IMG/VR virus record: IMGVR_UViG_3300034356_000609
Coordinates: 35,810 to 99,809 of that record
From: a virus
DNA: 64,000 nt
Direction: 5' to 3' (one strand)
The notes beneath the pieces were generated by a model. That model searched no databases. It had not been told where the DNA came from and was given only the letters and a program-made list of their open reading frames with translations. The number at the start of each line of letters is the position of its first letter. The first letter of the stretch is position 1. The position numbers and the translations under genes are program-made. Positions 1 through 63,135 of this stretch are shown in pieces.

Positions 1-3000
1 ACAGGTTGTTTGTATCTAGTTTTAATTAATTGTACTTTACGACCTTTACCACGACTCTCTGCGTTCTTATTAGCTTGGATAATACTACTGTCTACTTCAT
101 CTAAAGTTTCTCCAGGTAACCCTTCCCTCCACAATAGTTTAATACTGTCAAAGAAAGTATGGAATCTCTTTTTAATGTTTGTTTCAGTTACTCTTTCTTG
201 ACCACTTTTGACTGCGTTTGGTACTACATAACCTCTAAGTCTTTGACTTGCAGGGAGTTTTCTTTGAATGTCTTCATACAAACCTACCAAATCTCCTACC
301 AACGCTTTGTCTTCATTGTTTAACTTTTCGTAGTCTGGGTTATTATATTTACCGTCAGTAGTTTCTTTGGGTCTTAAATCCCCTAAGAAGTTATAGTCTT
401 TGTTTTTGTACTCGTCTCTTACCCTAGGGATAGTCCACTCAAAGCTAGGATTTTCTTGTCTAATATATTTAGAGTCAGAAGGAATGGTCTTGGTCCAAAT
501 ATATATAGGGCGTTCTGTTACATCTTCAAACTCTTCTCCCGTATCTTTATCAAATCTTTTGCGTACTATGCTAATGTGATTGGCTTTATACCAGTCAGTG
601 TCACGCATACGTTTATTGACTTCATTAGAATAAAGAACACTATAGTAAGCATCTATTAAATTCTTTCTGTAGATAGCAGATTTAAGGTCTGTTAAAGTTT
701 GAGCTGTAGGCAACTCGTCTAATGCACTAGGGTCTGAAAAGATACCAACGTCTAAATGGTTGCCATCAGTTTCAATAAAGTGGTCTGCCATCTTTTCAGC
801 CTTGGTTTGCATTTCTGCAAGTAAAACTGTCTCAGTAGCGAGTTGACCTCTAATGTTTCTCTTGACACTTTCTACTACTTCGTAGTAATAGTCTGTCTTC
901 TCTTTTGTTTGTAGTGCAAACAATCTTTTGAACAATCCTTTTAACAGAAGTTTATCTGCATCTGTCATGTTACGATTCTGGTCTGCAGCATCCTTTAAAT
1001 CTTCTATCTCATTTTCAATCTCACGGATAGTTTCACTTAACCCTAACTCAACTGCCGAACCTACTATAACTCCATCTTGGTCTCTATAACCTTTAACTGC
1101 ATTAAACAACCTAGTATATGCATCGTTAATCTCTGGGCTCTCTCCATATTTAAGAAAGACTGCCTTAATCTTATCAGCAATAGTTTGTTGTAACTCAAAA
1201 AACTGAGGATCTATTTCTATTCTAGTGTTGTTCTTGAGCCAAGTAGCTAAGTTGTTTTGTGCTTCTACTAGATTTTCTTTTTCTTCAAACAACTTACTTT
1301 GGAGTGCAGTTGTGTTTTGACCTAACGCTTCTGCATCTGCTAAGTCTGTTTCTAGAATACCAATACGAGTCTTAACCTGCTTTACAGCATCTTTACGACT
1401 TTGCTTTTCTATGTTAAACCTCTTAAGTACTGCTTCAGGAATAGTAAACTCAACAACATCAAGTTCTTTTCTTCTCTGCTTATAAGATATAATAGATTCA
1501 GCAATATCCCTTTCTTTTGAGCCTATGGGTTTTTCTGACCCGTCCTCATTAAATATAGAACCTAATCTCTCGTATTGTCTTCTTAGGTCTCCACGTACCT
1601 TACGATCTTCTTCTGTAGAGTCAACGTCTCCAAATACGTCTATGTGTTCTTTTATCTCGTCTAGTAAGGCGGCTCTAGCTTCACGAGCTTCTTCACTTAA
1701 AAGCGATTCTGCCTGATAATACTCATCCGTGTATCTACCTACTGCATACTTTTCTTGGAAATCTCCCAATGCTTTTTCCGCTGCTAGTATATCAGCTTCA
1801 ACTCCTGCCTTTTCTGCTACTTCTAAGTTATGCTGAAGGTCAAGCAAATCAGAGTAGAACTCAGCTTCTTTGAATTTAGTGTTATAGGCTAACTGTTTTA
1901 CTTTAGTTCTTCTTCCTTGCTCGTCATAATAGATCATATCTACCTCACGAGTTAACCCTTGGTAATGTTTATCTACAGTACTAAAGGCACTTACATTCCC
2001 TCTTTGTTTGTTTCTAGCTTCTACACGACGTTCAATGGCTTCTGCTCGTGTAGTTGTATCTATACTTGAGTTCTCTGCTTCTGTTAAATGGACATCTAAG
2101 AACTGTTTAAGTACTTGAACTACAGGGCTGCCAGAACTCGTAGCCATACCCATGTATACATTCCACATACTTCCTCCTTCATATGAAGGGTCCATACCTC
2201 TTTGTAGAAGTATTTGTATGTTCTGTGTAGTTGGCACCCAAGACAAAAAGTACTTTAAGTTTTGAATGTCTGACTCTAGGTTTTTTATCTTCTTAGCTTC
2301 ATTGTTAGCTTGTGCATCTAGTAACAAAGCTTCTTTAGCAGCAAGTTCTTGATTAAGTTGACTGTCTGAAGCTTGTAGCTTTTTACTAATTAATCTAAAA
2401 GGTTCTGCAAGCTGAGAAGCTACGGGAATAATAATAGCTTTTTGAGCAGCAGTACGTAAGTTAGTACTATTGTTTTGTATTCTTTCTAACTTGGTCTGTA
2501 ACTCTTTAACAACTACATCATAGTTTTCTATCTGTCTTCTGCGTTCCTGTAAGAATTCTGCCTTACCAGTTGGGTCTAACGCCAATTGGTCTTTAGTTAC
2601 ATTCATTACAAGTTCAGGCATCAACAAGCTATTAAAGCTTTCTACTTGCTCGTTGATTAAGTCTGATAGGTTTTTAGCATAGTTAAACAAACGTATAGCC
2701 TCTACATCTGACATCTGGCTTAGATTGTCCTTTGTTGTTTTGACTGTTGTTTGAATCCGTTTAAGTATGTTCTCTAATGCATCTATATAACTTACAGTAG
2801 AGTTAATAGTATCTGCTACTCCAGCACTAGATATATTGCCAAGCTTTTGTTTAATTCTTTCAATAGAGCCAAAGCGTGGATCTATCTCTGATAAAGCTTG
2901 AGACATCTGTGCCCAACTAGAACTGTTTAAACTCTCTCGTACATAGTTTTGAAACTTACTTAAATCTATTGAAGGAGGCGTTACTGTGGCACTACTATAG

Positions 3001-35254: not shown

Positions 35255-35858
35255 TATGAGGTTCAGGAAGCATTTTATGGTAGTTTACCAAACTTTGGTT
35301 TGTAGTTTCAAACAAAGCATCTAACAGATACTCAGGAAACTTAAACTCCATATCATACATAGACATACAAGGTGCAGGATTAACAGGCTCTGTAAAATAT
35401 GCATACATGTTTACTGCTTCTACGTCAGGGTTCAACACATAGAGATATCCATTACGGATAGTATAATAAGATCTGTTTGTTTTTACTCTTAGACGTGTGT
35501 GGTTAATAAAGTCCCTAATAGTTGTAGGAAAAATCTCTTCCGAGTTAGAGGTGTTGAATACACCCTGGATAAAGTAAGAGTATAGTCCCTCTTCAATTTT
35601 AGGAAGTTTTTTGCGAGTTCTTCGGATATCACACTTCAAGTCACACTCAGCTCCAGGAGCTTCTATTAAGTGGATACATTCATAAGCACTGTAGACGTTG
35701 TCAGAGGTTAGTAACTTTCTAAGGTTAATTTCTCTTCTAAGTAAAGCACTTGCCTTGGTCTTTAAAGTGTTGTATATAAATCTATCGGACACCAAGTCAT
35801 CATCACTAATAAACTTATTAGAAACTTTAATTCTAGATATTACATCTGATATAGTCAT
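35229..35858 (-). CDS. Neck/ring-type connector protein (209 aa)
   Basis: This is the first gene of the tail unit, with an 18-25 base leader after the promoter at 35876-35906. The N-terminus is helical (V-I-S-R-I-K-V-S-N-K-F-I-S-D-D-D-L), then A-Y-E-C-I-H-L-I-E-A-P-G-A-E-C-D-L-K-C with three nearby cysteines, and the rest is beta-rich with an acidic tail. The pattern of a helical start, a short C-x-x-L segment and I-R-R-T-R-K-K-L-P-K is one I associate with connector proteins of Bacteroidota podoviruses. A role as a ring of the neck or tail barrel is inferred from position. Confidence 0.6.
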   Translation of the reverse strand: MTISDVISRIKVSNKFISDDDLVSDRFIYNTLKTKASALLRREINLRKLLTSDNVYSAYECIHLIEAPGAECDLKCDIRRTRKKLPKIEEGLYSYFIQGVFNTSNSEEIFPTTIRDFINHTRLRVKTNRSYYTIRNGYLYVLNPDVEAVNMYAYFTEPVNPAPCMSMYDMEFKFPEYLLDALFETTNQSLVNYHKMLPEPHSDNEDDQP

Positions 35859-52720: not shown

Positions 52721-53704
52721 TTAATAAGTTACTTGAGATGAATACCCAGGGGCTATTAGGTAAAGGTTTAGAGTTCCTCCTGAGGTTAAAGTTGTTGTTG
52801 TGTACGTATTAACTCCAGGGTAAGTCGCACGTACGTTTGTCTTTGCAGCTTTAATAGCGTTGTATTCACTTAAAGTAAAGATACGAACATCAGGTGCTAT
52901 TCTCCACTTAGAGAATCTTCCAGCCTTTCTTGCTGCCACGTAATATTTATCGGCCACAGAGATTACCCCGTCATCGTTGACATCAAACATATGAAAGGAT
53001 AAACCGTTCCTAACAGTCTTGTTTAAGACTACATTAGATACTGCTTGGATGTCTGAGCTTGTGTAGGCTTGTACTCTAGTGGGAGCACTTATCTCTATGT
53101 AATATTCTTTAGAAGGGTCATAAGCCTCAGATATAGAATAGTAACCCGAAGAGTTAGTATAGATGGTTTTATATAGTGCCCAAGAAGAAGTAGTTACTAC
53201 ATAGTTAAATTCTAGCACATAAGGTAATGAAACATTGTTAGGTAAGTCATTCCACTTACCGTTAGACACAAATTGTACATAGTCTTCGTTACCTGCGTTG
53301 TTTGGTTCTCCAGAGTTCCAGTTTTTATAAGAGTAAGTTTCTCCTGTCACCCATCTCCAAGTCCCTTCTGTCACTTCATCTGTTAATCCTATCCATCCAG
53401 AAGGCCATATATTAAATATAAAACTTTGTTCAGCTGCAGTAGTAATAGTTACTAGATAACCACCCATAGCTGCACAGTTAGATCTAGCAGTAGTCCAAGT
53501 AGCAGTTCCTGTAGAACGATAATAAGAGTGTCCGTTATAGTTCTGCTGGTTGGTAAATCCTGTAATGGTTGAGTTAGTTCTTCTGTAAAGCTTTACAGCC
53601 ACATTAGAAGCACCAGAACCATTTGCGTTATACAAGTACCCCGAATAGTTAAATTGAGCTGTTAGAGAACTTGTAATAAAGAATAGAACGATTATCCATT
53701 TCAT
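52721..53704 (-). CDS. Secreted C-type-lectin protein with dockerin-like module (327 aa)
   Basis: Signal peptide M-K-W-I-I-V-L-F-F-I-T-S-S-L-T-A-Q. Residues about 55-167 are a C-type-lectin domain: W104-I-G-L-T-D, E-G-T-W-R-W-V, the E133-P-N sugar/calcium motif and W151-N-D, the classical calcium-site-2 pair. The usual disulfides are missing (one Cys, C77; L-E-F where C-E is typical). The lectin part seems inserted in a CNA-B-like sandwich (S-G-Y-L-Y-N-A-N-G-S-G before, N-S-S-G-Y-Y-S-I after). Residues about 210-300 hold a dockerin-like module with a perfect calcium loop D241-V-N-D-D-G-V-I-S-V-A-D, followed by A-G-R-F-x-x-W. The same module occurs in the T9SS protein at 56472-58361. The 327-aa protein ends without a T9SS domain. 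It overlaps the barrel gene by four bases. Role: probable glycan binding at the cell surface. Confidence 0.8.
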   Translation of the reverse strand: MKWIIVLFFITSSLTAQFNYSGYLYNANGSGASNVAVKLYRRTNSTITGFTNQQNYNGHSYYRSTGTATWTTARSNCAAMGGYLVTITTAAEQSFIFNIWPSGWIGLTDEVTEGTWRWVTGETYSYKNWNSGEPNNAGNEDYVQFVSNGKWNDLPNNVSLPYVLEFNYVVTTSSWALYKTIYTNSSGYYSISEAYDPSKEYYIEISAPTRVQAYTSSDIQAVSNVVLNKTVRNGLSFHMFDVNDDGVISVADKYYVAARKAGRFSKWRIAPDVRIFTLSEYNAIKAAKTNVRATYPGVNTYTTTTLTSGGTLNLYLIAPGYSSQVTY

Positions 53705-55149
53705 ATCTTAAGCTTACCTCCCATTAAGATTTGATAGTTAACTACATTTTGGTTTGCTATGTAAGTTCCTCCACCTGTAAGTCCAAACTTAAATGTCTTG
53801 GTGATTGAGTAGTTAATGTTTAAGAACGGAACCACTATGGGTTGACTCTCAAACAAACTCTCTGTATAGTATTTTGTGTAAGGAGCATAAACAGCCGCAG
53901 CAATAACAGTAGCGTCTAGATGTTTAGTAAGTTTTCCCTTATACATAAATCCCCCTATAATCATAGTAGAGATCATTTCTTCTTGAAATAACTGCCCGTA
54001 AGAACCTGCAGCCCCATAAAGTGCAGTAAAGTTCTTCATAGAGTTTACTCTTACAAAAAGTAAAGATGAAGTATAAGACTTAGGCATTAACCCTAATCCT
54101 GCTGAAAGTACATTAATGTGTTTATATCCCTTAGAGTTAGTTCCTATCCAAGATTTTATTGCTCCTATGTTTCCTATCTTAGCATTAACCATATAATCAG
54201 CAGACAACCCTAGAGACGCTGTGCCATCTCCTTTTACTTTAGTAAAAGACATGGTGCCTCTAGCATCTTGATTACTGCTTCGAGCTGTTTGGATTCCTAC
54301 GATATCCCCAGTAACTAAGATAGCAGGCTTTTGGGTCTCTACTTTACCCTTAGCAGCAGCCTTTGCCGTAGTACCTCCACCAGCTTGTTGGGTTTCGGTC
54401 TTTTGCTCCTCTACTTGTTCGGGAGTTTTTTCTTCAGGCTTTTTATCAGTTCCACCACCTGAACCACCCCCTCCGCCAGAACCATTGCTACCGTTGCCAG
54501 AAGAAGAACCAGAGCTACTCCCAGAGCTGCTCCCAGAACCACTAGAGCCGCTAGAATTATTATTTGCATTGCTTCCGTCATTATTTACTTGTCCTTCGGA
54601 CGACCCCACGGATCCTTGTCCAGATGATTGGTCACCTGAGTTAGAAGAATTCCCAGAAGTACTAGTAGTGTTATTACTTCCATCACCACTAGACTTGTCG
54701 TTCGATTTTCCATTTTTAGTACGTACATTAACTCCCGATGTCCCCGAAGTAGTAGTTCCTCCTACGGAAGTTCCAGAACCCAGAGAAGTCGAAGATAAGT
54801 CTAAACTCGTTAAAGAGTTCAAGGTCATTACATTATTTACTAAACCCATTACCGTATTGGTTGAGGTTGTAGTTGTAGTTGTGGCTAGTACACCATCACA
54901 AGGTTTGGTTGTACGGAAGTTTGTGTAAGTAGAATTTAACCAAGAGTCAAACGTACCATCTTGCAATTCTGTGTAAGAAAAAGCCCTTACTTGTCCATAG
55001 TACGACACCATTATAGGTGTGTTCATATCTGCACTAATGAACTTTAACTCCTTAGTGCAAGGGTCTGTGTAACTGTACATAAAGGACTGAGCTTTTAAAC
55101 TCAGTCCCATTATGACAAATAAAAGTAATATGTTAACTCTTAAAGACAC
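53701..55149 (-). CDS. Exported protein with Ser/Gly linker and outer-membrane barrel-like domain (482 aa)
   Basis: Signal peptide about residues 1-20 (L-L-L-F-V-I-M-G-L-S-L-K-A-Q). A small N-terminal domain has paired cysteines (Y-T-D-P-C-T-K-E and T-K-P-C-D-G). Residues about 140-240 are a low-complexity linker of Ser, Gly, Asn and Thr, then Glu/Lys/Gln/Thr-rich sequence. From about 275 to the end, alternating strands with aromatic ends (T-S-S-L-L-F-V-R-V, F-L-N-I-N-Y-S-I, F-K-F-G-L-T-G-G-G-T-Y) look like an outer-membrane beta-barrel, ending M-G-G-K-L-K-I. It overlaps the CsgG-like gene by 17 bases and the lectin gene by four, so the three are co-translated. The barrel assignment is from strand pattern only. 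Confidence 0.7.
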   Translation of the reverse strand: MSLRVNILLLFVIMGLSLKAQSFMYSYTDPCTKELKFISADMNTPIMVSYYGQVRAFSYTELQDGTFDSWLNSTYTNFRTTKPCDGVLATTTTTTSTNTVMGLVNNVMTLNSLTSLDLSSTSLGSGTSVGGTTTSGTSGVNVRTKNGKSNDKSSGDGSNNTTSTSGNSSNSGDQSSGQGSVGSSEGQVNNDGSNANNNSSGSSGSGSSSGSSSGSSSGNGSNGSGGGGGSGGGTDKKPEEKTPEQVEEQKTETQQAGGGTTAKAAAKGKVETQKPAILVTGDIVGIQTARSSNQDARGTMSFTKVKGDGTASLGLSADYMVNAKIGNIGAIKSWIGTNSKGYKHINVLSAGLGLMPKSYTSSLLFVRVNSMKNFTALYGAAGSYGQLFQEEMISTMIIGGFMYKGKLTKHLDATVIAAAVYAPYTKYYTESLFESQPIVVPFLNINYSITKTFKFGLTGGGTYIANQNVVNYQILMGGKLKI

Positions 55150-55825
55150 CGTTCTTGATAAGGTTTTCGATCACTTTAGTTGTAGCAGTTTCAAGTGATT
55201 TACGAGTAGCCTTACCTACTGTGCTTTGCGAGAATTTCATTCCGTCTAGCGACTTTAAGAAAGATTCCCCTGTTTTAGTGGATTCTCCTTCTCCAGACCC
55301 AATAAAGATTTGACCTGTCTTTGCATCTACAAAACGAACCTGCAAACGGATAAAAGTAGTCACGACTACCTTTGCTTTAGCTCCTTCTACAGTCTCGTCT
55401 TCGTCAACGGCAAAGTCTGCAACTGTCACATACACAAAGTATTGTGCAGCTTTAATCTTTCCTTTACCATCAATAGGTTCTTCAAAAACTCCTTTTTTAG
55501 AAGCTTTGAATTGGGTTACCATCCTTTCCTTGATTTCTCCCTTCTCCTCAGTAAATACAAAACGATTTGTCTCATCTAAATAGTCTAATACGGATTCTGC
55601 AAAACCTAAGCCGACATTCTTCTCTTGTAAGTCAGGATACATAGCCAATACTTTGGTCATGTCCATACTGATTACTTGTACTGTTCTTTTAACAGAGTCA
55701 GTGTAACCAGACACAGTAGAAATGTCTGCTTTCTCAATAACCTCATCCTCGGTTGTGGTCTTCATAGAACCACAACCATAGATAAGAATTATTAATAGTA
55801 GGCTACCAAGGATCTGATTCCTCAT
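55133..55825 (-). CDS. CsgG-like outer-membrane lipoprotein (230 aa)
   Basis: I choose the ATG at 55825 rather than 55909 because it starts a proper lipoprotein signal: M-R-N-Q-I-L-G-S-L-L-L-I-I-L-I-Y-G-C18, with the lipid-carrying Cys at 18. The mature part resembles the CsgG family of curli export pores: Y-F-V-Y-V-T-V-A-D-F-A-V, then V-T-T-F-I-R-L-Q-V-R-F-V-D-A-K-T-G-Q-I-F-I-G-S-G-E-G. A C-terminal helix follows (S-L-E-T-A-T-T-K-V-I-E-N-L-I). CsgG forms a nine-fold lipoprotein pore in the outer membrane; here the family is recognised from these motifs, and pore formation is inference. The start overlaps the preceding membrane-protein gene by 23 bases, an arrangement also seen in spanin pairs. 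Confidence 0.7.
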   Translation of the reverse strand: MRNQILGSLLLIILIYGCGSMKTTTEDEVIEKADISTVSGYTDSVKRTVQVISMDMTKVLAMYPDLQEKNVGLGFAESVLDYLDETNRFVFTEEKGEIKERMVTQFKASKKGVFEEPIDGKGKIKAAQYFVYVTVADFAVDEDETVEGAKAKVVVTTFIRLQVRFVDAKTGQIFIGSGEGESTKTGESFLKSLDGMKFSQSTVGKATRKSLETATTKVIENLIKNGVFKS

Positions 55826-56120
55826 CTGCTTGGGGTTTAGCGGCAGGAGCAGCAGGAGCAGGTGCTGGAGCAGCCTTCTCTTTAATGATGACAGTTTTAC
55901 CACCGCCACCAGTGTTTGCTTGTTGCTTCTGTTCGTTGTTCGTAGTGATGTTAATCACAGGTGCGGGAGCTGCTACTGCAGCTTGTGGTTCAGACTTCTC
56001 TTCCTCTCCACCTAAGTGGGTAGCAAACCATGCACCTCCAGCAGTAATTGCAGTAGTGATGGCTCCAATGATAGTCTTCTTTAAACCAGACATTCCGCCT
56101 TCTTCTTGTTCTTCTGACAT
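55803..56120 (-). CDS. Single-pass membrane protein with Pro/Ala tail (105 aa)
   Basis: I set the start at the ATG at 56120; an upstream ATG adds 17 residues unlike a start region. An acidic N-terminus (S-E-E-Q-E-E-G-G) is followed by one membrane segment at about 14-33 (K-K-T-I-I-G-A-I-T-T-A-I-T-A-G-G-A-W-F-A). A Gln/Asn-rich stretch and a Pro/Ala-rich tail ending E-S-D-P-W come after it. The tail is long enough to project into the periplasm. It overlaps the CsgG-like lipoprotein gene by 23 bases in another frame. An inner-membrane partner of the lipoprotein (spanin-like or export accessory) is possible; unproven. Confidence 0.6.
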   Translation of the reverse strand: MSEEQEEGGMSGLKKTIIGAITTAITAGGAWFATHLGGEEEKSEPQAAVAAPAPVINITTNNEQKQQANTGGGGKTVIIKEKAAPAPAPAAPAAKPQADEESDPW

Positions 56121-56124
56121 AATA

Positions 56125-56475
56125 TTATGAATTAGTTGTGTTTGACAAAGATACACCATCCTCCTCATCAACTTTTTGGATCAACATTTTGTCCCTGTCT
56201 TCAGAGTTGAACCAGTAGTCAACTACTTTGTTCAAGTTACCTACAAAAGCTCCTAAGAGGATAAGCAACATTTCTTTCCAGTCTTCTCCAATGGATGCTC
56301 CTACAAAGACAGCAGCATTAATACCTACAATGATTAAGGTAAACAAACCTAACACAATGGCGGTAATTTTCCAACGATTAGCCTGCATCTGTTGCAACAT
56401 GTAGTAGAAACGATTGTTGTCTGCTACTACTACGGGTTCTGCTTGGCCAAAACCAAGTTTTTCTTTTAAGTTCAT
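56125..56475 (-). CDS. Two-pass membrane protein, possibly holin-type (116 aa)
   Basis: Two membrane segments lie at about 37-58 (I-T-A-I-V-L-G-L-F-T-L-I-I-V-G) and 68-83 (E-M-L-L-I-L-L-G-A-F-V-G-N). The second is followed by N-K-V-V-D-Y-W-F-N-S-E-D-R-D-K, a pattern I associate with small holin-like or membrane proteins of Bacteroidota phages. Both ends are charged. It overlaps the T9SS gene by four bases and lies five bases before the next gene's start. It could be a second holin or antiholin beside the 87-aa candidate, or part of the export group. Position allows both. Confidence 0.6.
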   Translation of the reverse strand: MNLKEKLGFGQAEPVVVADNNRFYYMLQQMQANRWKITAIVLGLFTLIIVGINAAVFVGASIGEDWKEMLLILLGAFVGNLNKVVDYWFNSEDRDKMLIQKVDEEDGVSLSNTTNS

Positions 56476-58361
56476 ATGATTAATAGTTTAGAGTCTAGGA
56501 CTTGTTTTTCTGTCTTTAACGTAAGGATGTAAACTCCGTCAGGTAATCTTTCTAAATCCACGCTGTACTTATAGTTTCCTATAGGCATGTGCTTGTCTAG
56601 GATATTTTGGACTAACTGACCTACCTCGTTGTATAAAGACAAGTTGACATCGGATTCTTCGGCTATCTTGAATTGTACTTGGATAGCACCTTCTGTGGGG
56701 TTTGGAAATGCCATTAGGTCACTTACTTGGTTAATAGATACCAATCCTTTTCTACGAACTTCTACTATGCCCATAGTAGGTGTAATGTTCATATCCTTAG
56801 CCTTGTTATCACCTACGTACTTTTCTGCTGTCCAAATAGCTGCTGTAGCCCAAGAGTCTTGTGGTTTTTTAGCAATGAACTGAAGAGTAAATACTTGTTC
56901 TCCGTCTTTTAATAGATTGGCATTTGTAAGGTCAGCTCCTCCCCAAGACACAACTCCATTAGAAGGATTTGTGTAGGCAGTCCACTTCATGATTTTTTCT
57001 GTTACTTCAATCTGTTTGAAAGACAAATAGGCAGTGTCGTATTTAAGGTCTAACTGAAGAGCAGTAAGGTCTTTGCCGTTAGTAATAACTTTTACTGGGA
57101 CATTTACTAGATTGCCGTCTTCCACTTTGACTTTAGGCATGTTTATCTCTACCGTCTCTAAAGTAGGATCGTCATAACTTACTGTTTTGTCAATGATGTA
57201 ATTCTTGGCATTTGCTTGGTTAACAATCTTAATAGGAGTCAAACGAGCACGTTTAAAACCTGTTTGGTTAGCATCTCCCCTTACGTTGATGTAGTAAGAG
57301 ATAGAATCTTTTCCGTCAATACTATAAGTAAAGTTGGTTACGCCTGTGTAAGTAGAAGTAAGGTTTGTAGCTGAACCATTGATTGAGTTAAATTCTGATA
57401 CGGTAAAGAATAAGATATCTTTCTTAGAGTTAGGCCAAGAAGTAAATCTCCCCGCCAAACGACCATACACACCGTATACGTCAGCAATAGTAATCAATCC
57501 GTCAGAACCGTTTACGTCAAAAGAGTAATAATCAAATCCTGTAGGTGTGTATTGACCTAGTATAGATTGGTTAATCTTCTGTGCATCTGCAGTTGAATAT
57601 ACGGCACCAGGAGTCATTGTATCTCCTTTGAGAACCATTCTTACATCCCAATAGGTTGTATCTAAGAATTTACGGAAGACAACAACGCCAGTAGAGTTTG
57701 TTGCTTTGGCTTCTACTTGAGTCCAAGAACCTGTAGGAGATTTCTTTTCTAAAGACACCCAAAGATTCTTAGCGTCTGTTCCCGTAGTGTTCATAAACTT
57801 AGCAGCAAAACGTAGAACTTTCTGATTAAAACGTCCACCATAAGAGTAAACTACCAATGTAGTATCGTTACCCCAGTTAGTAGCAGCTCTGTTAGAAAAT
57901 GATTTTACACCTGCTACTTTTAACGTCTTAATAGAATCTAAGTTGTTAAATACAGCTTCGGCAGCGTGAGTAAAGGTTAAATCAAATGTAGCACCGTTAG
58001 AATAGTTAAAAGTAGAACTAGACCCTGTGTAAGCTAGAGTTACAGTTAAGAATCCCTGTACGTTACTATCTACGTACTGAAGATACTGGTCTGAAGTAGA
58101 GATTTTTAGACTAGGCACAACAGCAGTAAAAGCTGTATTATCATAGAATACACGGAACTGCATACCTGTAATCTTCTCACTAGTAGAAGTGTTATAGAAA
58201 TGCAAGGGTGCTACTGTTTGCCCTACTGTAGTAGTAGCTACTTGATAACCTGAGTCAATTACGACCCAATGACCCGTGCCAGGAGAAGTACTAGCACTCT
58301 GTCCAAAGAGGCTAGCTGTAAGTAGGAATAACCCTACTAGAAGCGATTGTATTTTTTTCAT
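56472..58361 (-). CDS. T9SS-exported surface protein with cohesin-like and dockerin-like modules (629 aa)
   Basis: Signal peptide about 1-23. Residues about 31-165 and 408-537 are cohesin-like sandwiches (the second: V-N-V-P-V-K-V-I, L-Q-L-D-L-K-Y-D-T-A-Y-L, G-E-Q-V-F-T-L-Q-F). Between them, about 254-345, is a dockerin-like module with loop D282-V-N-G-S-D-G-L-I-T-I-A-D and A-G-R-F-x-x-W, shared with the lectin protein. The last 78 residues are a type A T9SS sorting domain: F552-P-N-P-T-E-G, V-N-L-S-L-Y-N-E-V-G, L-P-D-G-V-Y-I-L-T-L, K-L-L-I-I. That domain normally sends proteins across the outer membrane and is removed or anchored by a sortase. It lies in the envelope unit, overlapping genes on both sides by four bases. 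The phage therefore appears to use host T9SS. The source was probably a host gene. Confidence 0.8.
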   Translation of the reverse strand: MKKIQSLLVGLFLLTASLFGQSASTSPGTGHWVVIDSGYQVATTTVGQTVAPLHFYNTSTSEKITGMQFRVFYDNTAFTAVVPSLKISTSDQYLQYVDSNVQGFLTVTLAYTGSSSTFNYSNGATFDLTFTHAAEAVFNNLDSIKTLKVAGVKSFSNRAATNWGNDTTLVVYSYGGRFNQKVLRFAAKFMNTTGTDAKNLWVSLEKKSPTGSWTQVEAKATNSTGVVVFRKFLDTTYWDVRMVLKGDTMTPGAVYSTADAQKINQSILGQYTPTGFDYYSFDVNGSDGLITIADVYGVYGRLAGRFTSWPNSKKDILFFTVSEFNSINGSATNLTSTYTGVTNFTYSIDGKDSISYYINVRGDANQTGFKRARLTPIKIVNQANAKNYIIDKTVSYDDPTLETVEINMPKVKVEDGNLVNVPVKVITNGKDLTALQLDLKYDTAYLSFKQIEVTEKIMKWTAYTNPSNGVVSWGGADLTNANLLKDGEQVFTLQFIAKKPQDSWATAAIWTAEKYVGDNKAKDMNITPTMGIVEVRRKGLVSINQVSDLMAFPNPTEGAIQVQFKIAEESDVNLSLYNEVGQLVQNILDKHMPIGNYKYSVDLERLPDGVYILTLKTEKQVLDSKLLII

Positions 58362-59778: not shown

Positions 59779-61476
59779 TTAATCTAATCTAAGGAAAGCT
59801 TCTAACTGTTCTCCTGTTGTTTGAGGAGTGGCTACATTCTTTAATCTCATTCCTATACTATCTGCTGTAGTTATGTTTGCTACTAAGTAATCCCAAACAG
59901 AAGCAGCGGTTAATACTGCGTTTCCAAAAGTATTATCTACAGGAATTCCAAAGGTTACTTGGTTTGCAGTAGGCATATTTAAAGTACCTGTTAAAGTAGC
60001 AAAAGCATAAAGTACACCTAATCTTACGTCTGTTGGATTAGGACTATCACTAGAAGCTGAGGGAGAAATGAATCTTTTAGTTGGGGCTACAACATTTGGG
60101 AAATTTAAACCTCCTGTTGAATTGTCTCTAAATTCTATGTATGTAGTTGTACTAGGAATTAAATGATAACGTGTAACCCAAAGAGGACTATATCCATAGG
60201 GGGAGTGAATAAACGGTCCAGAAAATAAATTAATTGTACTTCCACTAGGGGCATAAATAGTACATATATTCCCAGTTGAACTTATAGGACCAATAATTCT
60301 AAGCACAGCAGAAGTATAAACCAAAAGTCCTAATTGACTTCCTCCAAAACCAATTACAGGACCTGTAATATTAACAGTACAAAAAACAGTAAGCTCAAAT
60401 GGAAAGCTTACTTTTCCTAAAGTTAAAGTACCTGTCATATTAAAAGTACAGTTGCCTGTAATAGTACAAGCTTTCATGTCTGCCTCATTAACTTGAGTGA
60501 CATCTCCTGTTATGTTTATAGTAGGAGTAGAAGAAATATAAAGCATATTTCCACCTGTAGCACTTGAAGTCCAAGGTCTAATTGAACCTACAATATTTAT
60601 AGTTCCTGTGTTTAGAATATTGTAGATTGTTGTGTTTCCTCCTTGAGTTGTAGCTAAAGCAATATTAATATTTAAAGTACCTGCTCCATTAATTTGAAAA
60701 GTATTTCCTCCTGTAGAAGCGCGTAAAATAGGAGAAGTTATAGTGCTTGTTGTTCCTGCCCCACCTGTCCAGTTTAATATATTTACGTTAGAAGCTTCTA
60801 TAGAAACTGTGCAATTAACATTTACATTAGGAGCCAAGATAAAATTACCTCCAGTAACAGCGTTCTGAGCATCCTGAGAAGTTTCAAATAATCTTAATTC
60901 GGATATTGCAACATAATTAGTACTTAAACTTGCAGTAATATAAATTCTATAGCGAGTATAAGCTGTTGTATTAGTAAAAGTTCTAACATAAGGAAGTAAT
61001 TGAGAAGGAGATCCTACGTTAGTATCTAGCACAATCCAATTTGTCCCATCCCAAGCTTGAAATTGCCAGTTTGTAGGACGATCCCCATTATAAGTAGAAT
61101 TTTGAAGTGAATACCCTATAATAACTTTAGGACTAGAAAACTCATACTGTAACCACTCAGGTAACGGTCTCCCATTTTGACCAATCCAATGGGTCGTAAT
61201 ATTATTATCAAAAGCTCTCCAAGGCTGATAAGTATTATCGTCATATCTAGTTAGTGAACTTGCTATACCAGAAGGAGTAGTATATCCAGTCATCGTAGGA
61301 ACAGCACTTAACCCGAAGAATTCTTTATTAGACAAAGTAGCAACTGTTGCATTTTCATCTAAAGTCACCGTATATCCATTAGCAACTACAGTGTCTCCCG
61401 CAACAGGTTTTGTTCCTGTGTGCCATATAGCATTATTTGAAAAATTTCCACTTGCTATTGCTACTTTGATTGCCAT
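59779..61476 (-). CDS. Discoidin-domain tail fibre/adhesin, copy 2 (565 aa)
   Basis: N-terminus K-V-A-I-A-S-G-N-F-S-N-N-A-I-W with G-D-T-V-V-A-N-G-Y-T-V-T-L-D (about 1-50), shared with the neighbouring paralogue. Residues about 62-199 are a discoidin/F5-8C domain: W86-R-A-F-D-N-N-I-T-T-H-W, W108-L-Q-Y-E-F, W146-I-V-L, Y-T-R-Y-R-I-Y-I, I-S-E-L-R-L-F. Residues about 205-440 are repeated short strands (I-N-I-T-G-D-V, F-N-M-T-G-T-L, V-N-I-T-G-P-V) typical of a beta-helix. The tail contains a G-T-L-N-M-P... V-P-V/I-P-V-D-N-T-F-G-N-A element common in phage fibres, and S-I-G-M-R-L-K-N-V-A-T. Discoidin domains bind sugars or lipids, so it probably recognises the host surface. Six bases separate it from the paralogue. 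Confidence 0.8.
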   Translation of the reverse strand: MAIKVAIASGNFSNNAIWHTGTKPVAGDTVVANGYTVTLDENATVATLSNKEFFGLSAVPTMTGYTTPSGIASSLTRYDDNTYQPWRAFDNNITTHWIGQNGRPLPEWLQYEFSSPKVIIGYSLQNSTYNGDRPTNWQFQAWDGTNWIVLDTNVGSPSQLLPYVRTFTNTTAYTRYRIYITASLSTNYVAISELRLFETSQDAQNAVTGGNFILAPNVNVNCTVSIEASNVNILNWTGGAGTTSTITSPILRASTGGNTFQINGAGTLNINIALATTQGGNTTIYNILNTGTINIVGSIRPWTSSATGGNMLYISSTPTINITGDVTQVNEADMKACTITGNCTFNMTGTLTLGKVSFPFELTVFCTVNITGPVIGFGGSQLGLLVYTSAVLRIIGPISSTGNICTIYAPSGSTINLFSGPFIHSPYGYSPLWVTRYHLIPSTTTYIEFRDNSTGGLNFPNVVAPTKRFISPSASSDSPNPTDVRLGVLYAFATLTGTLNMPTANQVTFGIPVDNTFGNAVLTAASVWDYLVANITTADSIGMRLKNVATPQTTGEQLEAFLRLD

Positions 61477-61482
61477 AATTTG

Positions 61483-63135
61483 TTACGGATTATTATTTAA
61501 TGTGGTTTGAATTTGTACTCCAGTAGTCTCAACCGTAGCAGCGTTTTTAACTCTTCGACCTATACTGTTTGAAGTGTTTATGGAAGTCAAAGGGACAGCC
61601 CAAATAGCGGTAGGGTCAAGGACTGCTGTTCCTACTGTGTTGTCTACAGGTACGTTGTTAGCTACATTAGAAGGGGAAGGCACTATCATAGTTCCTGTTA
61701 ATGCTCCAGAAGAATAAGAAACCCCTTGTCTTACGTTATTAGGACTAGGAGCATCCGCAACTGTATCAGGACTAACTAATCTTGTTGAAGGAGGTTGTAC
61801 AGCTGGAGGTAATGCTCCATTAGTACTACTGTCCCTAAATTCCATATAAGAGTTAAAAGTTGGTATTAGGTGCATCCTTGAAATTAGCAATGGACTAATA
61901 CCATTTACTGAAAATATAAAAGGACCTGATAACAAAGTACTTGCGGCACTATCATAATTATTAGAAATTACTACGTTTCCAGAATTATTTAAAGCTGTTG
62001 CATTAAGAGTCCCAATAACACTTAATAGTCCTGAATTATTTTGAATTAAAGAAGCAGCAGCAAAAAATTTGTGAAATACATTTCCAACAATTTCACATCG
62101 AGAACTAGTATTAATAGAAATAGCAACTTGGGAACTACTTCCAATAAATAGGTTAGAAGTTACACTTCCTGTAATATAACACAAAGCAACGCTATTCAAT
62201 GATAAACAACCCCCACCACCTTCAAAACCTCCTTCTATATCTCCTGTAATATTAATACTACACTGGGCACTAGTACTAATAGCAAATCCCGTAGTTAAAG
62301 AATTTCGAGAGGCTATAATTCTACCTACAATATTAATAGTTGGATTACCTGCTGAAACTACAATCCCATTAGAAGCACTATATTTAATTATGTTTCCTAT
62401 TAAATTATAAGTACCTGCCGTAGTAAATGTGAGTAGTGTTGATCCTGATAAAAATCCAGCTTGAGTACAAGTAATAGTAACCCCAGGATTAACGGTAAAA
62501 GTTCCTCCTAAAACACTTGGTGTATTTCTGTCTCCTACATTTTGTAGGTGCATATCCCCAATAGAAGTATAAGACTGTCCGTTATTGGTTGTTATGTTAA
62601 TTCGGTACTTTTTATAAGCTGTTGTATTGGTAAAAGTACCTGTGTAGGAAAGAGCTGTATTACTTGTAACCGTGTGTAATACTACCCAAGCTGAACCACT
62701 CCACCCCTCAAATGTCCAGTCTCTAGGCATGTTACTTAGATTATTTTGGTAGGTTCTAAGTATAATATACTGATTGATTGCTTTAGGAGTTTTAAACTCG
62801 TAAGCAAGCCAAGCTGCAGGAAACCCGTTTGGGCTAATCCAACCTTCACCTAAACCATAGTTAAAATCAAAAGCTTTCCACGCTACATAAGATTCACCAC
62901 TGTCGAACTCTCCGCTTGTAGTAACTGCACAATCCCCCACAATGTAAGTTCGCATTGGAGGTACTGCGCTAGGGGGGTGAACAATGTTTGTAATACACTC
63001 TACAGTAACACTTTGATCTATGTTAACTGTAAATCCATTAGAAGCCACAATATCAGTAGCAGTAGGAATTGTACCTCCCTCCCAGATTGCTGGATTGCTC
63101 CAGTTACCACTAGCTATTGCAACTTTTAATCCCAT
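61483..63135 (-). CDS. Discoidin-domain tail fibre/adhesin, copy 1 (550 aa)
   Basis: Same layout as the next gene: N-terminal K-V-A-I-A-S-G-N-W-S-N-P-A-I-W (about 1-50), discoidin-like domain at about 60-198 (W86-K-A-F-D, W109-L-A-Y-E-F, W150-V-V-L, Y-K-K-Y-R-I-N-I-T). A strand-repeat region (about 210-400, I-N-I-V-G-R-I, I-N-I-T-G-D-I, C-E-I-V-G-N-V) and a C-terminal V-R-Q-G-V-S-Y-S-S-G-A-L-T-G-T, then V-P-V-D-N-T-V-G-T-A, follow. The two copies are clearly related but diverged most in the strand repeats. It follows a 98-aa gene by six bases. A receptor-binding role on the virion is inferred from these fibre-type elements. Confidence 0.8.
   Translation of the reverse strand: MGLKVAIASGNWSNPAIWEGGTIPTATDIVASNGFTVNIDQSVTVECITNIVHPPSAVPPMRTYIVGDCAVTTSGEFDSGESYVAWKAFDFNYGLGEGWISPNGFPAAWLAYEFKTPKAINQYIILRTYQNNLSNMPRDWTFEGWSGSAWVVLHTVTSNTALSYTGTFTNTTAYKKYRINITTNNGQSYTSIGDMHLQNVGDRNTPSVLGGTFTVNPGVTITCTQAGFLSGSTLLTFTTAGTYNLIGNIIKYSASNGIVVSAGNPTINIVGRIIASRNSLTTGFAISTSAQCSINITGDIEGGFEGGGGCLSLNSVALCYITGSVTSNLFIGSSSQVAISINTSSRCEIVGNVFHKFFAAASLIQNNSGLLSVIGTLNATALNNSGNVVISNNYDSAASTLLSGPFIFSVNGISPLLISRMHLIPTFNSYMEFRDSSTNGALPPAVQPPSTRLVSPDTVADAPSPNNVRQGVSYSSGALTGTMIVPSPSNVANNVPVDNTVGTAVLDPTAIWAVPLTSINTSNSIGRRVKNAATVETTGVQIQTTLNNNP

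Follow-up and report, generated by a model that had tools for sequence, protein, structure and literature searches.

The 64,000-nucleotide stretch of DNA analysed here (hereafter the window) covers positions 35,810 to 99,809 of the IMG/VR record IMGVR_UViG_3300034356_000609 and contains a cassette of seven tightly packed genes, all in one direction (Table 1). In order, these genes encode a 629-aa anchor protein, a two-TM protein, a one-TM protein, a CsgG-like protein, an outer-membrane protein, a C-type lectin protein and a small secreted protein; across relatives this envelope cassette comprises 6-7 genes. The anchor and lectin reading frames lie on the minus strand exactly where a preliminary description of the sequence had placed them (56472-58361 and 52721-53704). 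A gene for a SprT-like protein often, although not always, adjoins the cassette. Further along the window (59779-63135), two paralogues of 565 and 550 aa stand in tandem; both have domains of discoidin-like (F5/8 type C) kind and are probably tail or fibre proteins.

The record itself is a 99.8-kb virus contig whose terminase, portal and capsid proteins belong to phage families. Its nearest terminases among annotated phages include those of Cellulophaga phages (about 30%) and of named crAss-like gut phages (about 28%), and on these grounds we consider the window phage to be crAss-like.

Table 1. Genes and protein features of the envelope cassette and its neighbour (positions in the window; residues for features within proteins).
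Feature	Position	Strand	Basis or remark
Secreted/periplasmic protein, 147 aa	52275..52718	-	Last cassette gene here
C-type lectin protein, 327 aa	52721..53704	-	ORF list; Lectin_C, profile, BLAST
327-aa protein: signal peptide	residues 1-17
327-aa protein: lectin head	residues about 55-166		EPN 133-135, WND 151-153
327-aa protein: dockerin-like module	residues about 175-327		Calcium loop D241-x-N243-x-D245...D252
Outer-membrane protein, 482 aa	53701..55149	-	Signal peptide; putative barrel
CsgG-like envelope protein	55133..55828	-	PF03783 below cut-off
One-TM inner-membrane protein	55803..56117	-	A/P-rich periplasmic tail
Two-TM protein, 116 aa	56125..56475	-	In many, not all, cassettes
Anchor/scaffold protein, 629 aa	56472..58361	-	ORF list; profile and structure matches
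629-aa protein: signal peptide	residues 1-20
629-aa protein: cohesin-like domain 1	residues about 28-180
629-aa protein: TTR/Ig-like + dockerin-like module	residues about 182-376		Between both cohesins
629-aa protein: cohesin domain 2	residues 405-532
629-aa protein: T9SS type A sorting domain (CTD)	residues 552-628
Secreted SprT-like putative metallopeptidase, 151 aa	58358..58813	-	HESLH; below cut-off

The anchor protein combines a cohesin domain with a T9SS sorting domain

The preliminary description had proposed that the 629-aa protein is a T9SS protein in which two cohesin-like domains flank a dockerin-like module, and profile searches bore out this architecture. The Pfam Cohesin family matched in two stretches (E 2.2e-11). 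Taken alone, domain 2 scored 37.7 bits, well over the PF00963 cut-off of 24.1, and the weaker domain 1 scored 22.8 bits (E 1.1e-4), slightly below that cut-off; a profile comparison of the two domains gave a score within the range of shuffled nulls. A transthyretin/Ig-like domain between the cohesins was found by a profile search of solved structures. The sorting domain was recognized above curated cut-offs both by Pfam (Por_Secre_tail, 6.9e-12) and by NCBIfam (TIGR04183, 9.4e-11). Consistently, the family profile of the protein retrieved a solved cohesin (6kg8, 1.8e-4) and a solved T9SS tail (8glk, 5e-5). The AlphaFold model resembled solved cohesins (TM 0.83 to 1g1k and 0.82 to 6kge), but it was weak, with a pLDDT of 63.5 and of only about 30-37 at module residues 251-300.

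T9SS type A cargo is defined by a Sec signal peptide together with a C-terminal sorting domain, and the 629-aa protein has both. By a simple Bacteroidota-type rule, a signal peptide was present in 111/111 anchors and in most of 144 module proteins. Plasmid matches to the 629-aa protein fell mainly in the C-terminal region with the sorting domain.

The lectin protein and the envelope genes beside it

The 327-aa protein matched Lectin_C (PF00059) at 2.1e-18 and, by profile, solved lectins at 2.5e-34. The residues of the calcium-sugar site are nearly invariant among the lectin-type relatives, EPN being kept in 85/85 and WND in 84/85. The lectin head is inserted inside an Ig/TTR-like domain, which is followed by the dockerin-like part. 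The protein lacks a sorting domain. We rejected diversification of the lectin by a diversity-generating retroelement (DGR), as the 99.8-kb record has no match to RVT_1 (reverse transcriptase).

A PHROGs search at E 0.01 found no family for the 629-aa, 327-aa, 482-aa or 147-aa proteins. The one-TM protein, listed as an open reading frame from TTG 56171 but likely starting at MSEEQEEGG, has a tail that terminates in a conserved acidic motif with a final W, as do all of the 25 tails listed (for example EEDPW or ESW). In the 482-aa protein, a small N-terminal domain containing two invariant cysteines is followed by an S/G/N-rich linker and a putative C-terminal beta-barrel (about 235-482) that was read from the sequence and has no family match; nearly all outer-membrane proteins of the cassettes have Bacteroidota-type signal peptides by the same simple rule. 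Sequence searches of solved structures gave nothing useful for the outer-membrane and small secreted proteins. The CsgG-like frame is listed from GTG 55909, and its likely start is an internal ATG near 55828 (MRNQILGS).

Since the CsgG-like and outer-membrane proteins accompany the cassettes and the lectin has no sorting domain, the lectin and its relatives could be exported by this phage-encoded pair and assemble at the surface without contacting a cohesin. We regard this route as distinctly unlikely: the CsgG-like protein reached only 14.2 bits (E 0.028) against the PF03783 cut-off of 20.8, its profile retrieved no CsgG and no other match among solved structures in the PDB, and the conserved cohesin and module would be left unexplained.

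The shared module is dockerin-like

The module was said in the preliminary description to be homologous in the lectin and the 629-aa protein, and three kinds of comparison agree on this: BLAST (33% identity over 132 aa, E 2e-17), profile-profile alignment (99.7%) and predicted fold, as the lectin model, when searched with Foldseek, retrieved a phage T9SS-sorted protein (7.6e-8 over 155 columns). The lectin model is weak overall (pLDDT 59.6), with higher values in the module helices (77-90). The Foldseek search of the PDB with this model was uninformative on dockerins, as lectins dominate its matches and no dockerins appear.

We next asked how closely the module resembles dockerins. When it was aligned by hhalign with four dockerins, two of them entered by hand and two taken from a search result, 58 columns were in register across the repeat pair (P 9e-5), and the score of 29.5 exceeded that of each of 100 column-shuffled nulls, the highest of which reached 19.6. 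The Pfam dockerin family (PF00404) gave E 0.11 in the lectin and no match in the 629-aa protein; its cut-off of 22.9 bits was not reached by any sequence tested, the best relative scoring 18.1 bits. A dockerin is expected to have two calcium loops. Here the second loop is canonical, and the first is degenerate and has lost its ligands. The term dockerin-like used earlier is therefore retained: the profile kinship to dockerins stands, but because no tested sequence passes the family cut-off, the module is best filed by its sequence as dockerin-like and is not assigned to the dockerin family. Outside the window but in the same record, a 1473-aa frame (L327, G000:C1:24056-24142) has a weak dockerin-like match of 15.2 bits, also below the cut-off.

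The fate of the calcium loop differs between the two contexts. The 12-residue loop is kept in 137/145 separate modules compared to 38/137 internal ones, shuffled tails matching at 0.3%; the internal loop (residues 282-294 of the 629-aa protein) is often lost or carries a one-residue insertion.

Anchor and module protein are found together while heads are exchanged

The preliminary description had called for a search of other crAss-like genomes for the pair. We ran the module, cohesin and sorting-domain profiles over all open reading frames of the fetched loci and obtained 71 complete non-redundant cassettes, including those of crAss-like phages. All 71 contain a separate module protein without a sorting domain: there is one such protein in 70 cassettes, two in one, and no cassette has zero. 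Among the fetched loci, no module protein lying deep in a locus was found without a partner bearing the sorting domain. Many of the loci had been retrieved by way of the CsgG-like protein, and for those the module played no part in the selection; the 71 cassettes are mutually related and are not independent draws. The cassettes occur in three gene orders, and the link between anchor and module protein therefore survives rearrangement. The cassette with two separate module proteins, of 422 and 334 aa (L234:4549-6820), may be a case of one anchor serving two heads.

In the separate protein the module is constant, as for the most part is the N-terminus, and the head varies. Heads are C-type lectins in 74 cases, GEVED domains in 17, lectins with a LamG-type insertion in 15, PA14 domains in 10 and larger lectin forms in two; a further 26 non-redundant proteins share a head of about 170-210 aa without a Pfam match (L004, L006, L210 and relatives), located at the lectin's place in proteins of about 400 aa. 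Two loci capture such an exchange: L005 and L007 are 96% identical in flanks of 5.9 and 4.4 kb that reach inside the gene, and differ only in about 730 bases of head.

The cassette is shared by unrelated phages

Nineteen relatives share the window terminase at 73-89%. Three further relatives have a terminase at only 28% and a capsid protein at 24%. Their CsgG-like proteins nevertheless show 94-96% identity to members of the 19-relative group and nest inside that group with a support of 100/97. In T4-like phages with the terminase of Flavobacterium phage immuto (see below), the CsgG-like proteins are 83-88% identical to that of the window, and the cassette is also found on contigs of up to 308 kb whose T4-like terminase is more distant. 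Viral contigs of 205-308 kb that carry it are L286, L309, L280 and L308. These sequence relationships indicate that the cassette moves horizontally among crAss-like phages and T4-like myoviruses.

When 84,980 bacterial genomes were scanned with the CsgG-like query, which detects close relatives only, a single contig matched. This contig (L156, RFPL01000028.1), binned as a Sphingomonadaceae MAG, contains the phage cassette together with lysis genes and is probably phage sequence in the bin. Within the limits of such a close-relative scan, the family looks viral.

Phage immuto encodes the anchor as two genes

Flavobacterium phage immuto (Immutovirus, MW353175-7) is a cultured T4-like myovirus with gp20, gp23 and tail sheath, whose host is Flavobacterium sp. 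LMO8, and it carries the cassette minus the two-TM protein. The whole cassette is otherwise common to immuto and the window phage, except that two secreted proteins, both having a signal peptide, take the place of the single anchor in immuto. The first (g14) contains cohesin-like domain 1 and a degenerate module without a sorting domain; the second (g15) contains cohesin 2 and the sorting domain. The lectin (g13) has a module with a good calcium loop and no sorting domain, and g15 is the sole sorting-domain protein of the three. Anchors split in this manner were found in 12/71 complete cassettes. The deposited annotation of immuto already names "lectin C-type" and "cohesin" proteins; in the portion of the literature on its genus available to us, we found no description of the cassette as a unit or of its docking logic. 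At 49-60 kb (L219:23773-34589), immuto also has glycosyltransferase and sugar-nucleotide genes grouped in one block, and these may alter the surface glycans of the host.

The location of the immuto cassette, at 10-16 kb among replication genes, bears on two other functions. In the window and many relatives the cassette adjoins endolysin, holin-like and peptidase genes. It might thus serve accessory lysis or outer-membrane disruption, the inner-membrane, CsgG-like and barrel proteins acting in a spanin role and the other two, lectin and T9SS protein, loosening the surface at a late stage. We find this very unlikely, as the immuto cassette is complete although it stands apart from the genes for chitinase, holin and lysozyme, and as swappable glycan-binding heads would be hard to explain. 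The lectin and 629-aa proteins might also be tail fibres or other virion adhesins: phage receptor-binding proteins are known to contain lectin-like, PA14 and LamG folds, and the heads of the cassette are swapped in the way that such proteins are. Signal peptides on both proteins, the sorting domain on the 629-aa protein and the distance of the immuto genes from the structural block all argue against a place in the virion, which we hold to be highly improbable.

Discussion

We propose that the cassette encodes a surface-display system in which glycan-binding heads tagged with a dockerin-like connector would dock on a T9SS-exported cohesin; on the sequence evidence, we judge the chances of this to be about even. 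The 629-aa protein would be made during infection and cross the inner membrane by Sec, and the host type IX secretion system would then export and anchor it via the C-terminal sorting domain. A second secreted protein, devoid of a sorting domain, would provide an exchangeable head on the connector, here a C-type lectin. Docking on the 629-aa cohesin could take place in the periplasm, the lectin then being carried out along with its partner through the T9SS pore, or at the surface. Export or anchoring would be assisted by dedicated helpers, namely the CsgG-like, outer-membrane, inner-membrane and small periplasmic proteins. If dockerin-tagged heads dock on the exported cohesin in this way, the cell would show interchangeable glycan binders. 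The lectin coat would probably bind the host's own surface glycans and thereby mask receptors against competing phages, or, alternatively, change the adhesion of the infected cell, and head swapping would track glycan variation. Either effect would fit with heads that bind glycans and turn over and with a cassette that competing phages share.

Docking is favoured by four observations: a module protein lacking the sorting domain always accompanies a cohesin that bears it; the calcium loop is kept in the separate module, much less in the internal one; the module is constant while heads swap; and in the immuto split, cohesin and sorting domain reside on one protein and modules on two others that lack a sorting domain. 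Other points speak against it. The module falls under the Pfam dockerin cut-off with one canonical calcium loop of two, the internal module of the 629-aa protein could occupy its own cohesins, and a lectin lacking a sorting domain would need carriage by a partner or another exit route, an unusual arrangement. Nor do linked genes that occur together prove binding.

The module might instead be a generic building block of Bacteroidota surface proteins (TTR/Ig plus dockerin-like), structural or self-pairing and making no contact with cohesins, so that the lectin and the 629-aa protein would both be surface or periplasmic products of the same cassette. Its presence in both proteins and its failure to reach the dockerin cut-off agree with such a block, as does the internal copy, whose frequent loss of a normal calcium loop implies that the module can persist without one. 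The strict pairing in every complete cassette, the immuto-type split and the selective retention of the loop in the separate copy would all be unexpected of a mere spacer, and we consider the generic block rather unlikely. The display model is directly testable, since the cassette is carried by a phage in culture, immuto, with a Flavobacterium host.

More broadly, Bacteroidota phages of unrelated virion types may share a virus-encoded scaffold of cohesin-dockerin-like type, which would hijack the host T9SS and onto which swappable glycan-binding heads would be plugged at the surface of the infected cell, forming a modular, horizontally traded system of surface remodelling and receptor masking; taken as a whole, this joint proposition seems to us to fall a little short of an even chance. 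To our knowledge, phage control of the exterior of an infected Gram-negative cell is described mostly for small lipoproteins and O-antigen enzymes, and we know of no earlier virus-made cohesin-dockerin-like assembly. If correct, the display model would give phages a new means of remodelling the host surface through a first assembly of this kind, and a new path by which superinfection could be excluded or adhesion altered in aquatic Bacteroidota.

The closest known arrangement is the cellulosome (PF00963/PF00404), where likewise a surface-anchored cohesin protein stands beside separate proteins made of a head and a connector, heads are carbohydrate-active or carbohydrate-binding, and calcium-loop residues are kept. 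The cassette differs in being phage-encoded and anchored by a T9SS sorting domain, and its docking is putative; its module has one degenerate loop, scores below the family cut-off and is fused to a TTR/Ig-like domain, and its heads look like binders, not enzymes.

Among phages, the Bacteroidota phage Cryophage (Bellas et al. 2020, PMC7468147) encodes variable T9SS-sorted proteins, one of them with PA14, for which its authors suggested superinfection exclusion or strain competition. No cohesin-dockerin pair is mentioned in the part of that account consulted, and the sorting domain resides there on the variable cargo itself, whereas in the cassette it resides on the conserved cohesin scaffold and the variable heads lack it. 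A variable C-type lectin domain is also found in zeta crAss-like phages (PMC12386605), in tail fibres that are DGR targets. These lectins resemble that of the cassette in being variable and of C-type, but they belong to virion fibres and are diversified by a reverse transcriptase, whereas the cassette lectin has a signal peptide, no reverse transcriptase in its record and varies by whole-head replacement.
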